Source of the DNA: Posidoniimonas corsicana
GTDB lineage: Bacteria > Planctomycetota > Planctomycetia > Pirellulales > Lacipirellulaceae
NCBI RefSeq assembly: GCF_007859765.1
Contig: NZ_SIHJ01000004.1
Span: 1 to 64,000, forward strand
Length of the DNA: 64,000 nt
Reading direction: 5' to 3'
Part shown: piece by piece, positions 25,294-50,470 of the stretch
Layout: each line of letters opens with the position of its first letter
Numbering within the stretch: the stretch's first letter is position 1
Position numbers and translations under genes: made by a program
Notes under the pieces: model-generated
Told to the model about the DNA's origin: nothing
The model's database searches: none
The model's input: the letters and a program-made list of their open reading frames with translations, nothing else

Positions 25294-25708
25294 CGATGTT
25301 CAATTCGTGGTTAGCGATCTGGCCCGCGGAGTTGCCCGTAGCCCCCGGCTCTGCCGGGGGATGATCCTGCTGGGCGCCATTGCACTCCTTCTATCCCCCC
25401 GCAGTAACCAATCGCTACGAGGCAATCGCACAGGAAGTGATGATCTTGGGTGCAATCGTTCTGAAGCACGACAGAGTCCGAAAATGCCCACGTTGGAATC
25501 GGTGGGCCACTCGCTGTAAGGCGCTGGGAAGTTTAGGCTTGTGGTTCAGGCGGTGTGGCTCTGGCGGGCGGCTAACGCCCTGCGAGCTATCCTATTGGAC
25601 CCTCCACGGTAGTCGGTTTCTAGAACAAAACCCGCGTTTCGAGCACGCACACAACCAAGACGAGCCGCCCGGCAGCGATGCGGCGGGAACAGCAGGCGGA
25701 AGCGACGT
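25294..25708. other. Intergenic with REP-like half element
   Basis: 415 bases between the divergent 311-residue gene and epmA. Apart from the hairpin at 25338-25362, no structure or credible frame was seen; the epmA promoter should be here. Confidence 0.5.
25338..25362 (+). repeat. REP-like GTAGCCCCCGGCT hairpin (single arm, copy C)
   Basis: GTAGCCCCCGGCTCTGCCGG followed by GGGAT forms a G/C hairpin and matches the left arm of the full elements at 27998 and 28412. The second arm is missing or diverged here. Confidence 0.7.
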
Positions 25709-26599: not shown

Positions 26600-27411
26600 A
26601 TCGGCGGACGCCTGACGTGGCGCTGCGCCTCGTCGATGAGGGGCCACCAAACCCAGTGCAGCCCGGCGCGCCTGGCGGCGGCGAACGCGAGCCAGCAAGC
26701 CGCCATCCAGGTCAGGTGGACCAATGTCCAAGAACCCTTCAGCGAAGCGAAGAACGGAGCGGCGCCCAGCGACCAGCTTGCGGCCGAGTCCCCCAGGTGG
26801 GCGAACAGGCCGCCGGTCCACTCGACGATTGGGATGCCCGCCAGCCCCAGCAGCGTGAGGCCGATAGCGTGCTCTCGGCTCAGGTGGTCGCGGCCGGCGA
26901 GCCAGGCGGCGGACAGGCCCCCGACCGCGAGGCCGAGCCCCATGACAACCGACAGCAGCAGGCTTGCGCCGGCGGGCAGTTCGCTGCCCTCAACGCTGTT
27001 GAGCCAGTGCCGGGCCGAGGCCGCCAGCACCGCCGTGGCGCTGGCCAGCACGAACAACGCCGGCAGCCGGAACCGCGATGGGTCGGTTGGCAGAATAAGC
27101 GAGGCCTCGCGCGTCAGTGCGGCCTCGCTCGAAAAGCGGTACTGGCGCGTCAGGATGACGAAGCTACCTGCCATCCAAGCCGCCGCGCAGATCGCCGGGA
27201 TCGGCGCCCAGGGTGTGCCGGGCAGGGGGCTGGCGAGCACCGCGTGGGCGTGCAGCAGCAGCGCCAACGCGATCACCCCGGCGGTGACGCGGTTGATAAC
27301 ACTCGACGTGCCCGCGACGGCGTAGGCACAGCTCACCGCCATCGGCGCCATCAGCAGACCGGCCCACAGCAGGGGTGGGAGCTGGGTCTCGAGCAGCGGC
27401 TTGGGCGGCAT
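26596..27411 (-). CDS. Polytopic membrane protein, hypothetical
   Basis: Start ATG at 27411 shares a base with the folA stop (TAATG), indicating translational coupling to folA; upstream extension in this frame is shadow of folA. 271 residues, about seven hydrophobic helices, starting MPPKPLLETQLPPLLWAGLL. No recognised motif. Its coupling with dihydrofolate reductase may only be transcriptional. Confidence 0.75.
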   Translation of the reverse strand: MPPKPLLETQLPPLLWAGLLMAPMAVSCAYAVAGTSSVINRVTAGVIALALLLHAHAVLASPLPGTPWAPIPAICAAAWMAGSFVILTRQYRFSSEAALTREASLILPTDPSRFRLPALFVLASATAVLAASARHWLNSVEGSELPAGASLLLSVVMGLGLAVGGLSAAWLAGRDHLSREHAIGLTLLGLAGIPIVEWTGGLFAHLGDSAASWSLGAAPFFASLKGSWTLVHLTWMAACWLAFAAARRAGLHWVWWPLIDEAQRHVRRPPI

Positions 27412-27935
27412 TACTTGCGGTCCCAGACCTCGAATGTGAATGAGTGCTCGTGCTTCTCGTCGGCGGGGTGGTCCACTTTCTCGGTCAGCTCGAAGCGGGA
27501 CCAGTCGACCTCGGGGAAGTGGGCGTGGCCGTCCTCGATGGTGGCGTGCACGCGGGTCAGGTAGATGCGGTCGACGCGGGGCAGGGCGTCGGCGTACACG
27601 CGGCTGCCGCCGCCGATGAACACCTGGTCGGTGGGCCCGCCGATGCGGTGGGCGGTCTGGATCGCGTCGTCCAGGCTGGTCGCGGTGAGCACCTGGGTGC
27701 CCGGCTTGAGGTCGTCCGGGACCGACACCTCGTCGGGGCTGCTGGTCAGCACGATCGAAGTGCGGCCCGGCAGCGGGCGGTCGTGCGACTCGTAGGTCTT
27801 GCGGCCCTGGATGATGCAGTGCCCGATGGTGTGCCCGCGGAACCACTTCAGGTCGGCCGGCAGCCGCCACGGCAGCCCGCCGTCCTGACCGATGACGTTG
27901 TTCTCACTGGCGGCGGTGATGATGGAGAGTTTCAT
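27411..27935 (-). CDS. folA: Dihydrofolate reductase
   Basis: Start at ATG 27935 (MKLSIITAASENNVIG), 174 residues. The LPWRLPADLKWFR segment carries the catalytic acid Asp28 (Asp27 in E. coli); QGRKTYES and GGGSRVY match the NADPH-binding loops. Reduces dihydrofolate to tetrahydrofolate with NADPH, regenerating the folate oxidised by ThyA, encoded 664 bp upstream on the same strand. The small NPYQSP gene lies between them. Confidence 0.95.
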   Translation of the reverse strand: MKLSIITAASENNVIGQDGGLPWRLPADLKWFRGHTIGHCIIQGRKTYESHDRPLPGRTSIVLTSSPDEVSVPDDLKPGTQVLTATSLDDAIQTAHRIGGPTDQVFIGGGSRVYADALPRVDRIYLTRVHATIEDGHAHFPEVDWSRFELTEKVDHPADEKHEHSFTFEVWDRK

Positions 27936-27997
27936 AGCAAGCTGTAGCGTGCGGAGTGGATCTGCCAAGCGTGAGGGGCTTGAATCGTCGGTTGCTC

Positions 27998-28077
27998 GTA
28001 GCCCCCGGCTCCGCCGGGGGATCGCATCATGGCAGAGATAGCTCGCAAGGCAATCCCCAGGCGGATCCGGGGGCTAC
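27998..28077. repeat. REP-like double hairpin, copy A
   Basis: Two G/C hairpins: the left arm begins GTAGCCCCCGGCTCCGCCGG and the right arm ends CCGGGGGCTAC, joined by a 36-base linker. About 67 bases (from 27993) are identical, in the same orientation, to copy B at 28410. The stop codon of the small membrane gene lies in the right arm. This may act as a terminator. Confidence 0.8.
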
Positions 28078-28382
28078 CGTTCTTTGGATCGAGTGCAACG
28101 GGCCCATACCAGGTACAACGCTCCATGTGTAAGTAGAACAAGTGGAGTGACCAGTAGCCCTCCACAAACAGGGCCGACCCATCCGTGGCCGGTTGCTGCG
28201 CTAACAAGTGCGCAGGCCGAGGTGATAGCGACACACGCTAGAGCTGGTGGTACCGCAACCGTCCACGGGATGTCATCCAGCAAGATATCGAATTCGTCGT
28301 CATCCTCTTTCCCGGCACTTGGGCGGTCGCCGCCAGGATCTGATTGAGGCGATTGGTAGGGATTCACTTGGCTTGCCACCAA
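28074..28382 (-). CDS. Small membrane protein with NPYQSP N-terminus
   Basis: 102 residues beginning MVASQVNPYQSP, then an acidic segment and two hydrophobic helices (about 42-62 and 70-92). The NPYxSP opening matches other small planctomycete membrane proteins. Function unknown. The gene is bracketed by REP-like copies A and B in direct orientation, and its stop codon is supplied by copy A. It is less G+C-rich than folA and thyA, so it may be a recent arrival between them. Confidence 0.7.
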   Translation of the reverse strand: MVASQVNPYQSPQSDPGGDRPSAGKEDDDEFDILLDDIPWTVAVPPALACVAITSACALVSAATGHGWVGPVCGGLLVTPLVLLTHGALYLVWARCTRSKER

Positions 28383-28411
28383 AGATGAGACCAGTCGCGT
28401 CAGTTCATGTG

Positions 28412-28497
28412 CTCGTAGCCCCCGGCTCCGCCGGGGGATCGCATCATGGCAGAGATAGCTCGCAAGGCAATCCCCCGGCAGAGCCGGGGGCTACGAG
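28412..28497. repeat. REP-like double hairpin, copy B (complete)
   Basis: The most symmetrical copy: CTCGTAGCCCCCGGCTC at the left end is mirrored by GAGCCGGGGGCTACGAG at the right end, with a shared linker. It lies 30 bp upstream of the small membrane gene's start, in the same orientation as copy A. Such elements resemble REP/BIME sequences of other bacteria; no RAYT-type transposase is visible in this window. Confidence 0.8.
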
Positions 28498-28598: not shown

Positions 28599-29393
28599 CT
28601 ACACCGCCACCGGCGCCTTGATGTGCGGGTGCGGGTCGTAGTCGGTGAGCTTGAAGTGCTCGAAGCGGAAGTCGAACAGCGAGTCAACGCTCGGGTCGAG
28701 CGTCATGGTGGGCAGCGGGCGGGGATCGCGCTGGAGCTGCGTGCGGGCCTGGTCCAGGTGGTTGTCGTACAGGTGGGCGTCGCCCAGGGTGTGGACGAAC
28801 TCGCCCGCCTCAAGGCCGGTCACCTGGGCGACCATCATCAACAGGAGCGCGTAGCTGGCGATGTTGAACGGCACGCCCAGGAACACGTCGGCCGAGCGCT
28901 GGTAGAGCTGGCAGCTCAGCCGGCCGTCGGCCACGTAGAACTGGTACAGCAGGTGGCAGGGCGGCAGCGCCATCTGGTCCAGCTCGCCCACGTTCCACGC
29001 GCTGACGATCAGCCGGCGGCTGTCGGGGTTGCCGCGGATCTGGTCGACCAGCTCGTGCAATTGGTCGACCGTGCGGCCGTCGGGCGCAGCCCAGCTGCGC
29101 CACTGCTTGCCGTACACGGGGCCGAGGTCGCCGCTCTCGTCGGCCCACTCGTCCCAGATGCTGACGCCGTGCTCGTTGAGGTAGGCGGTGTTGGTGTCGC
29201 CGCGGATGAACCACAGCAGCTCGTGGATGATGCTCCGCAGGTGCAGCTTCTTGGTGGTGACCAGCGGGAACCCCTCGGCCAGGTTAAACCGCATCTGCCG
29301 CCCGAACACGCTGCGCGTGCCGGTGCCGGTGCGGTCGCTCTTGGCGGCGCCGTTCTCGAGGATGTCGGAGAGGAGGTCGAGGTATTGCTGCAT
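28599..29393 (-). CDS. thyA: Thymidylate synthase ThyA
   Basis: 264 residues, the length of the E. coli enzyme. Catalytic Cys146 is in [23 protein letters not shown] and [11 protein letters not shown] complete the substrate site. Methylates dUMP to dTMP with methylene-tetrahydrofolate, giving dihydrofolate for FolA. Same-strand neighbour of folA, with one small membrane gene in between. Confidence 0.97.
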
Positions 29394-49442: not shown

Positions 49443-50470
49443 GCGAACAGAAGAAGCAACGCTGCGGGCGTCGCCGTTCGGACGCCCGCCGGCCTGACCT
49501 GTTGCCCGTGGCCACCGGCTCTGCCGGGGGATCTCGCCGGGGCGGCGGTTGCGAGCAAACCTACCCCCCGGCAGAGCCGGTGGCTACGAGTTGTCGGACG
49601 GCCCCGGCTTTCCTCGCTGTTCCATGCATCGCGGGGCTGGCCGCGTTGCTCTACGCGGCGCCGACCTGCGCCGCGCCGGTCACCTCGTTCACCGACATCC
49701 AGCACTGGGTCGGCGAGGGCGCCAACCAGGCCGCGCTGATCATCGACTGGGACGAGTCGCCCGCCGCCGGCGGCCCGCTCGCCTGGGGCTACCGCTGGGA
49801 CGGCCAGGCCACAGGCCGCGACATGCTGCTGGCGGTGATCGCGGCGGACCAGCGCGTGTACGCCAAGCTCGACGCCGCCGAGGTGCGGATGTACGGCCTG
49901 GGGTACGACGCGAACCAACCCGAGTCGTTCGCGCTGTCGGACAACTCCGCGTTTGACCAGCGGGGCGTCACGCAAGCCACGCAGAGCCAGGCGGACGGCG
50001 CTGTAGCGACCGACCCGCTGGACGCGTACGGCGAGGGCTGGTACCTGCGGTTCTGGCACTACGCCAGCCTGCCCAGCGGGTTCGACTCTACATGGGAGAG
50101 CAACCAGCGGGGCTTCGCCTCGCGCGAGCTGGCCGACGGCGCCATCGACGGGTGGACCTTCGCCACGGTGTTCAACTTCACCGCGTACCCGGACCCCGCC
50201 GAGCCCGCCCCGGCCGTCACGCAGCCCGGCGACTACAACGCCGACGGCGCCGTCAACGCGGCCGACTACACGGTCTGGCGGGACGGCCTCGCCGCGGCCG
50301 GCGCCGGCCACGACGGCTACGAGCTGTGGCGCGACCACTACGGCGCCTCCCCGACCACTCTTTCCGCGGCCGCGCCCGAGCCGGCCGCGGCCCTCCTGTT
50401 CCTGGCCGCCGGCGTTGGGCTGGCCGGCCGACTGCGTTTTCCTAACCCCCACCTTGGAACGACCTCATGA
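49439..50470 (+). CDS. PEP-CTERM surface protein with dockerin-like repeat (riboswitch operon)
   Basis: Start GTG 49439 overlaps the previous stop; 343 residues. A basic leader partly encoded by a REP-like element precedes the hydrophobic signal segment near 58-80. The main domain contains [20 protein letters not shown] and LAWGYRWDG, similar (from memory, unverified) to surface proteins under B12 riboswitches in Bacteroidetes. Then [20 protein letters not shown] (calcium-type repeat), PEP and a hydrophobic exosortase tail. A corrinoid-related surface role fits the riboswitch, but is inferred. Confidence 0.8.
49505..49590. repeat. REP-like double hairpin inside a coding region (copy D)
   Basis: GTGGCCACCGGCTCTGCCGG with GGGAT on the left is inverted on the right as CCCCCGGCAGAGCCGGTGGC with TACGAG. 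It is related to copies A and B but with GTGGCCACC in place of GTAGCCCCC. It lies within the N-terminal leader of the PEP-CTERM gene, in an unusually arginine- and glycine-rich part, so it may be a recent insertion or the annotated start may be too early. Confidence 0.7.

Follow-up and report, generated by a model that had tools for sequence, protein, structure and literature searches.

Two near-identical REPINs bracket a small gene between folA and thyA in Posidoniimonas corsicana

How does a small gene come to lie between two nearly identical repeats, in the gap between folA and thyA? The question is raised by a locus of Posidoniimonas corsicana, whose genome assembly (6.77 Mb in 13 contigs, hereafter G000) supplied the window analyzed here, the first 64,000 bases of contig 4 (1-64000). 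An initial annotation had noted direct REP-like copies on both sides of the gene, and had proposed either a recent duplication or joint movement of gene and element.

Results

A repeat search recovers the two copies, A (27993-28077) and B (28410-28494), as a direct repeat of 85 nt whose members lie 417 bp apart and are identical at 82 of 85 positions (96%), a similarity far beyond chance, which we reject as its source. This bears out the presence of direct copies around a gene between folA and thyA, and the figure of about 67 identical bases in the same orientation given by the initial annotation agrees well with the longest identical run, which is 66 nt. The label REP-like needs refinement, as the copies are not bare REPs. 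Each is an inverted REP pair (REPIN), and two complete REPINs therefore bracket the gene. The arm is a 23-nt hairpin composed of GTAG, CCCCCGGC, a TCC or TCT loop and GCCGGGGG, with the unpaired GTAG at one end of the palindrome, as in GTAG-tagged REPs (palindrome of 20-40 nt, stem of 5-13 bp, loop of 2-20 nt). The architecture common to both copies is GTAGCCCCCGGCTCCGCCGGGGG, followed by 34 nt and then by the inverted arm. In copy A, a 5-nt tail (TGCTC) precedes the left arm (27998-28020), a 34-nt spacer (28021-28054) and the right arm (28055-28077); in copy B, the tail occupies 28410-28414, the left arm 28415-28437, the spacer 28438-28471 and the right arm 28472-28494. Taken individually, A and B are inverted repeats of 28-31 nt, and each folds into a single hairpin, with z scores between -7 and -11 (-7.2 for A and -11.3 for B as RNA, -8.5 for B as DNA), which is what is expected of a REPIN, i.e., an inverted REP pair with a spacer. 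The three mismatches (block positions 67, 71, and 74) all fall within the right arm, the hairpin of which is weakened in A by two changes. Both copies, the two elements whose position was checked, are intergenic.

The gene between the copies is an open reading frame (ORF) on the minus strand (28074-28382), encoding 102 residues from the first TTG, with alternative GTG starts possible closer to its NPYQSP motif. Its upstream neighbor is thyA, thymidylate synthase (28599-29393, minus strand; PF00303, E 6.8e-128), and its downstream neighbor is folA, dihydrofolate reductase (27411-27932, minus strand; PF00186, E 1.2e-47). The ORF ends with the TAG of the GTAG in the right arm of A, so the earlier claim that one copy supplies the stop codon holds. 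Its product has no Pfam or NCBIfam match and is predicted to be a membrane protein solely because of its two hydrophobic stretches (Kyte-Doolittle). Motifs of the NPYQSP type are probably common in planctomycete membrane proteins, and the ORF falls in what we name here the NPYQSP small membrane protein group, defined by an N-terminal NPY[QE]xP motif followed by hydrophobic segments. Such a start is shared by other membrane-type ORFs scattered over G000, with 11 pattern hits for the NPY[QE] type including this ORF. Its GC content is 57%, compared with 68% for the window, and its GC3 is 0.51, compared with 0.95-0.97 for its neighbors and 0.53-0.91 for the other NPY[QE]-type ORFs. No second match to the protein was found in 59 genomes (G000 and 58 others). 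We did not accept weak matches in five others of the 396 genomes of the order, which are partial (33-42% identity, E 8.5e-4 to 0.009); two of these lie inside open frames of more than 600 residues, and three contain internal stops. Judged by these comparisons, the ORF would encode a ~100-residue NPYQSP-type protein with no convincing homologue, that is, an orphan. Elsewhere in G000 (C2:226293-228543, loci L106-L110), five NPY[EQ]xP-type membrane-type ORFs are arrayed ~1.2 kb from a REPIN (C2:229768-229847).

As for the repeat family, the arm has 44 matches in G000 at up to three mismatches (none for a reversed control pattern), which correspond to 27 dispersed places, 18 two-armed and 9 one-armed, as befits a GTAG-tagged REP. 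Two of these are elsewhere in the window: a single arm on the plus strand (25338-25360) and a REPIN of the same family with a different spacer (49508-49587). At up to two mismatches, the arm occurs in 17 of 59 genomes, G000 among them. The places are very unevenly distributed over contigs C1-C5 and C10, with only 4 of 27 on the 4.16-Mb C1, where ~16.6 are expected (binomial P ~8e-7). Among the 18 two-armed elements, the arms show a mean identity of 93%, and spacers measure 24-36 nt in 15 and 55-61 nt in three. The short spacers are slightly alike (mean z of 1.2 over 91 pairs, 8% above 3). The A/B pair is the exception, with a spacer similarity score of 30, when the next best among 153 pairs is 7 and the maximum in 3060 shuffles is 10. 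Their 34-nt spacer occurs exactly twice in G000 and is absent, at up to three mismatches, from the 58 other genomes searched. In the related genome G022, which has the same arms, the eight spacers compared are strongly alike (mean z of 6.4 over 28 pairs, 75% above 3); such conservation is as expected of a younger REPIN population. Two further elements, one in G000 (C5:59902-59977) and one in G001 (C1:784043-784118), have related spacers (z 6.4) at seemingly different loci, which hints at past movement. In G007, REPIN copies are 82-89% identical and 1.8-2.8 kb apart.

Since A and B alone share a spacer, and since that spacer is found nowhere else in 59 genomes, they form a specific, recent and local duplicate. 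A randomly placed copy would land within 417 bp with a probability of ~1e-4, so the duplication event was local. We consider duplication of the REPIN itself to be near certain, and of the two proposals of the initial annotation it is recent duplication that gains support, A and B being the sole pair with a common spacer among 18 two-armed elements. Joint movement of gene and element fares less well: in G000 and the relatives searched, neither the gene nor the A/B spacer turned up anywhere else. An assembly artefact as the source of the pair, conceivable because the genome is in 13 contigs, can be dismissed almost entirely and was rejected: the copies differ at three sites and have unique sequence between them, while a false duplication would be identical. 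The chance of all three differences falling in one arm is ~0.02, and one arm may therefore have been exchanged with another REP. The common block extends over the 5-nt tail on its 5' side and reaches no farther than the right REP on its 3' side; the shared TGCTC may reflect a target preference instead of copied sequence. In sampled stretches of G000 (464 kb), G017 (400 kb), and G001 (160 kb), local direct repeats of REPIN type were limited to A/B and one locus in G017. Other direct repeats, in G007, G005, and the sampled stretches, were set aside because they follow a different pattern (dispersed, coding-type, or kilobases apart).

The sequences immediately outside the arms bear on the order of events. 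In other REPINs, GTAG is preceded by ~8 nt of semi-conserved outer sequence, the last three of which are mostly CYC. To score the ends of A and B, we used a matrix derived from the remaining 16 two-armed elements (32 ends), a procedure that favors those 32 ends. The left end of A (7.3) and the right end of B (9.1), where GAGTCGA directly follows the right arm, are typical. The right end of A (-5.0) scores below all 32 reference ends, and the left end of B is weak (3.7), although still inside the natural range, since 5 of 32 reference ends score no higher. This pattern suggests that the outer ends of one REPIN may have been split: A-left and B-right, now ~500 bp apart, would enclose the gene and the core of a second REPIN. 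It hints that an existing REPIN was entered by the gene together with one REPIN copy. As B-left lies within the natural range, B may instead be an ordinary element from which A was copied.

Next, we compared the folA-thyA junction across the family. A ThyA match is present in 42 of 43 genomes, and 40 junction loci were examined, excluding G008, which has no ThyA match, and G022 and G025, whose thyA is fragmented. In 39 of these, folA and thyA lie together, the remaining locus (G033) being a short stretch without folA. The gap has a median of 82 bp over the 39 junctions and exceeds 300 bp in only four. Arms of the A/B family are found in a single junction, that of G000, and an NPYQ-type gene in two, those of G000 and G011. 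A motif match in the junction of G026 was not counted, as it reads NPFASP and is on the opposite strand. The sole genome of the same genus, G001, whose ThyA is 92% identical to that of G000, has a gap of 89 bp that contains no REP and no gene. Two outcomes sought in relatives were thus missing from the 38 other junctions, none of which has a REP of the A/B family but no gene, as a predicted intermediate would, or the small gene without REPs. Intergenic sequences of G000 and G001 are too diverged for exact insertion points or empty sites to be read from their alignment. Among the five sites aligned between the two genomes, only that at 94113 has a REP in both, with unlike spacers. Most simply, the extra DNA in the junction is a gain in the G000 lineage; loss in G001 is a possible alternative, a single same-genus genome having been sampled. 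In G011, which belongs to another genus, the NPYQPP small membrane-type gene occupies the same junction in the same orientation, after a different inverted repeat, and its protein aligns with that of G000 over eight motif residues only (E 0.012). That inverted repeat (L016, 1376-1430), beside the NPYQPP gene, has a CGTC-like core.

A parallel arrangement is present in G017, a member of another genus (L248, 1539-3196; G017:C1:625038-626695), at a locus whose neighbors look by eye like a DeoR-type regulator and ftsH. Two small membrane-type genes are flanked and separated by three direct REPIN copies, copies 1 and 3 being 97% identical over 112 nt. Every REPIN supplies the TAG stop codon of the gene before it, and the start of each small gene lies 17 nt past a REPIN. 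The two small proteins are paralogues; their identity is 36% overall but almost complete at the two termini, and the DNA repeats extend into the ends of the genes. The locus is well explained if a gene and its REPIN were duplicated in tandem and sequence was exchanged later. The G017 sequence would accordingly show that such blocks can multiply, which is not evidence that they move.

Finally, we searched for the RAYT-type transposase whose presence the initial annotation had proposed checking. The search succeeded in part: G000 has five Y1_Tnp matches, one of them long and good (L005, E 6.9e-25) and one with internal stops, but among 58 Y1_Tnp loci from G000 and related genomes, which are part of all Y1_Tnp matches listed, none has a REP of the A/B family within ~1.5 kb at up to four mismatches. 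Locus L006 (~1501-1743; G000:C1:2038190-2038432), a Y1 match with two internal stops, is related at the DNA level to L194 of G012 and is apparently a decayed Y1 transposase copy. A hairpin scan of 22 of the 58 loci revealed sibling tagged REPs on both sides of L195, L198, and L209 and on one side of L005, including CTAGCCAGGGG at L005 and GTAGCCAGGGG on both sides of L195. L005 and L195 have the same upstream neighbor, which we take to be dnaK. Two Y1 loci of G022 (L202 and L216) include in their stretches hairpins close to the A/B family (TTAGCCCCCGGYTCTTCAARCCGGGGG). Machinery of the Y1/RAYT type is thus present, but its link to the A/B REP family is putative. Since no Y1 gene flanked by an A/B-family REP was found, an enzyme acting on A and B is assumed; a cognate RAYT may possibly have been missed or lost.

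Discussion

Together, these findings lead us to propose, with a probability of roughly 0.7, that a GTAG REPIN settled in the folA-thyA junction, that the gap gained a gene, and that the REPIN was duplicated to flank it. After the split from the nearest sampled relative, the REPIN would have settled in the short gap, which would then have gained a ~330-bp segment carrying the presumed orphan small membrane gene; we infer gain in this lineage instead of loss in the relative. Duplication, whether by a Y1 enzyme or by a local process at the hairpins (recombination or template switching), would have left one copy on each side of the gene. The odds that duplication and gene arrival were linked are roughly even. 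The REPIN now provides the gene with its stop codon and with a strong hairpin on both sides of the transcript.

Could the gene be a bystander, already in the junction when a REPIN inserted on one side and a later local hop copied it 417 bp away? We regard this as a serious but less probable reading. The common block ends at the REPIN edges and not within the gene, and the 5-nt tail, present on one side only, is reminiscent of the asymmetric excised REPIN of Pseudomonas fluorescens SBW25 in the accessible portion of that report (PMC3116915); GTAG REPs, too, often terminate genes with their TAG, according to the available text of PMC3733652. However, the gene is in 0 of 38 other junctions and would need a separate arrival as well, and A-right is without any outer-end sequence. 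The division of outer ends between A and B would fit with the gene and direct REPIN copies having been inserted, amplified or recombined as one block, as would the three direct copies around two small genes in G017 (93-97% identical). This we nevertheless consider unlikely. G000 yielded the unit a single time, and neither a donor nor another copy was found; for G017, where the repeats reach into the ends of paralogous genes, it is enough to assume that a gene was duplicated in tandem with its REPIN in the ordinary way; and sampling of 464 kb from G000 and 400 kb from G017 brought no other example. Nor does the locus look like a composite transposon, as it is in one place only and no empty site is resolvable to the base. 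The identical spacer of A and B, and the spacers shared by the compared G022 elements, could have been left by a unit that moves whole, spacer included, but no movement was observed; that the gene moves together with the element is possible but unproven.

Still less probable is that the ancestor of the family already had an NPYQxP gene between thyA and folA, that this gene was lost repeatedly, and that the REPINs came later. The same-orientation gene in the G011 junction speaks for it. Against this, such a gene is present in just two of the 39 junctions, the G000 and G011 proteins align over eight motif residues only, and NPY[QE]-type genes are scattered over the genome. The preferred reading is a REPIN duplicated around a gained gene. 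A broader proposal is highly speculative: that in this family direct near-identical REPIN pairs are the ends of small gene cassettes, giving a stop codon and hairpin and serving as sites of gene-plus-REPIN insertion, amplification and exchange, a route by which small, fast-changing membrane genes would be acquired and multiplied beside housekeeping genes. If gene capture between REPIN copies were recurrent, it would be a route for orphan genes into compact gene junctions. The spacers of old copies have drifted apart, so that the copying of a REPIN can seldom be observed directly. An identical-spacer pair 417 bp apart captures a single recent event: the spacer was duplicated together with the arms, and the limits of the copied unit are visible.

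In the literature on REPINs, RAYTs and their spacers, planctomycete REPINs and REP-bracketed genes, we found no report of a gene bracketed by spacer-identical REPINs, which is not proof of novelty. The spread of REPINs of the A/B kind is attributed to REP-associated Y1 (HUH) transposases. In the BIME/REPtron arrangement, as far as the accessible text of PMC6006769 describes it, a tnpA-REP gene is flanked by REPs. Several Y1 genes of the genomes examined are likewise flanked by sibling tagged REPs, whereas the gene bracketed by A and B is not a transposase. In P. fluorescens SBW25, according to the available part of Bertels and Rainey (2011, PMC3116915), REPINs are replicating units, and an asymmetric excised REPIN with a 5' tail was seen. 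Compared with those, the A/B family has no RAYT found flanked by its REP and far fewer copies (18 two-armed), but it resembles them in its conserved ends, in a spacer that is less conserved and of rather constant length, in its whole-unit hairpin and in an asymmetric unit with a 5' tail. GTAG-tagged REPs, in the portion of Di Nocera et al. (2013, PMC3733652) that was accessible, form HH dimers with variable spacers, occur in Planctomycetes (several families in R. baltica), and provide TAG as a stop codon; conserved spacers are expected in HH dimers as a rule of thumb. In contrast to that expectation, the spacers of G000 are almost unrelated. The likeness with the published families is one of general description and extends to the GTAG tag, the 8-bp stem and 3-nt loop, the inverted pairing with tags outside, a spacer within the range of 20-100 bp and the use of TAG as a stop. 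The A/B element itself thus belongs to the already described GTAG REP/REPIN kind.
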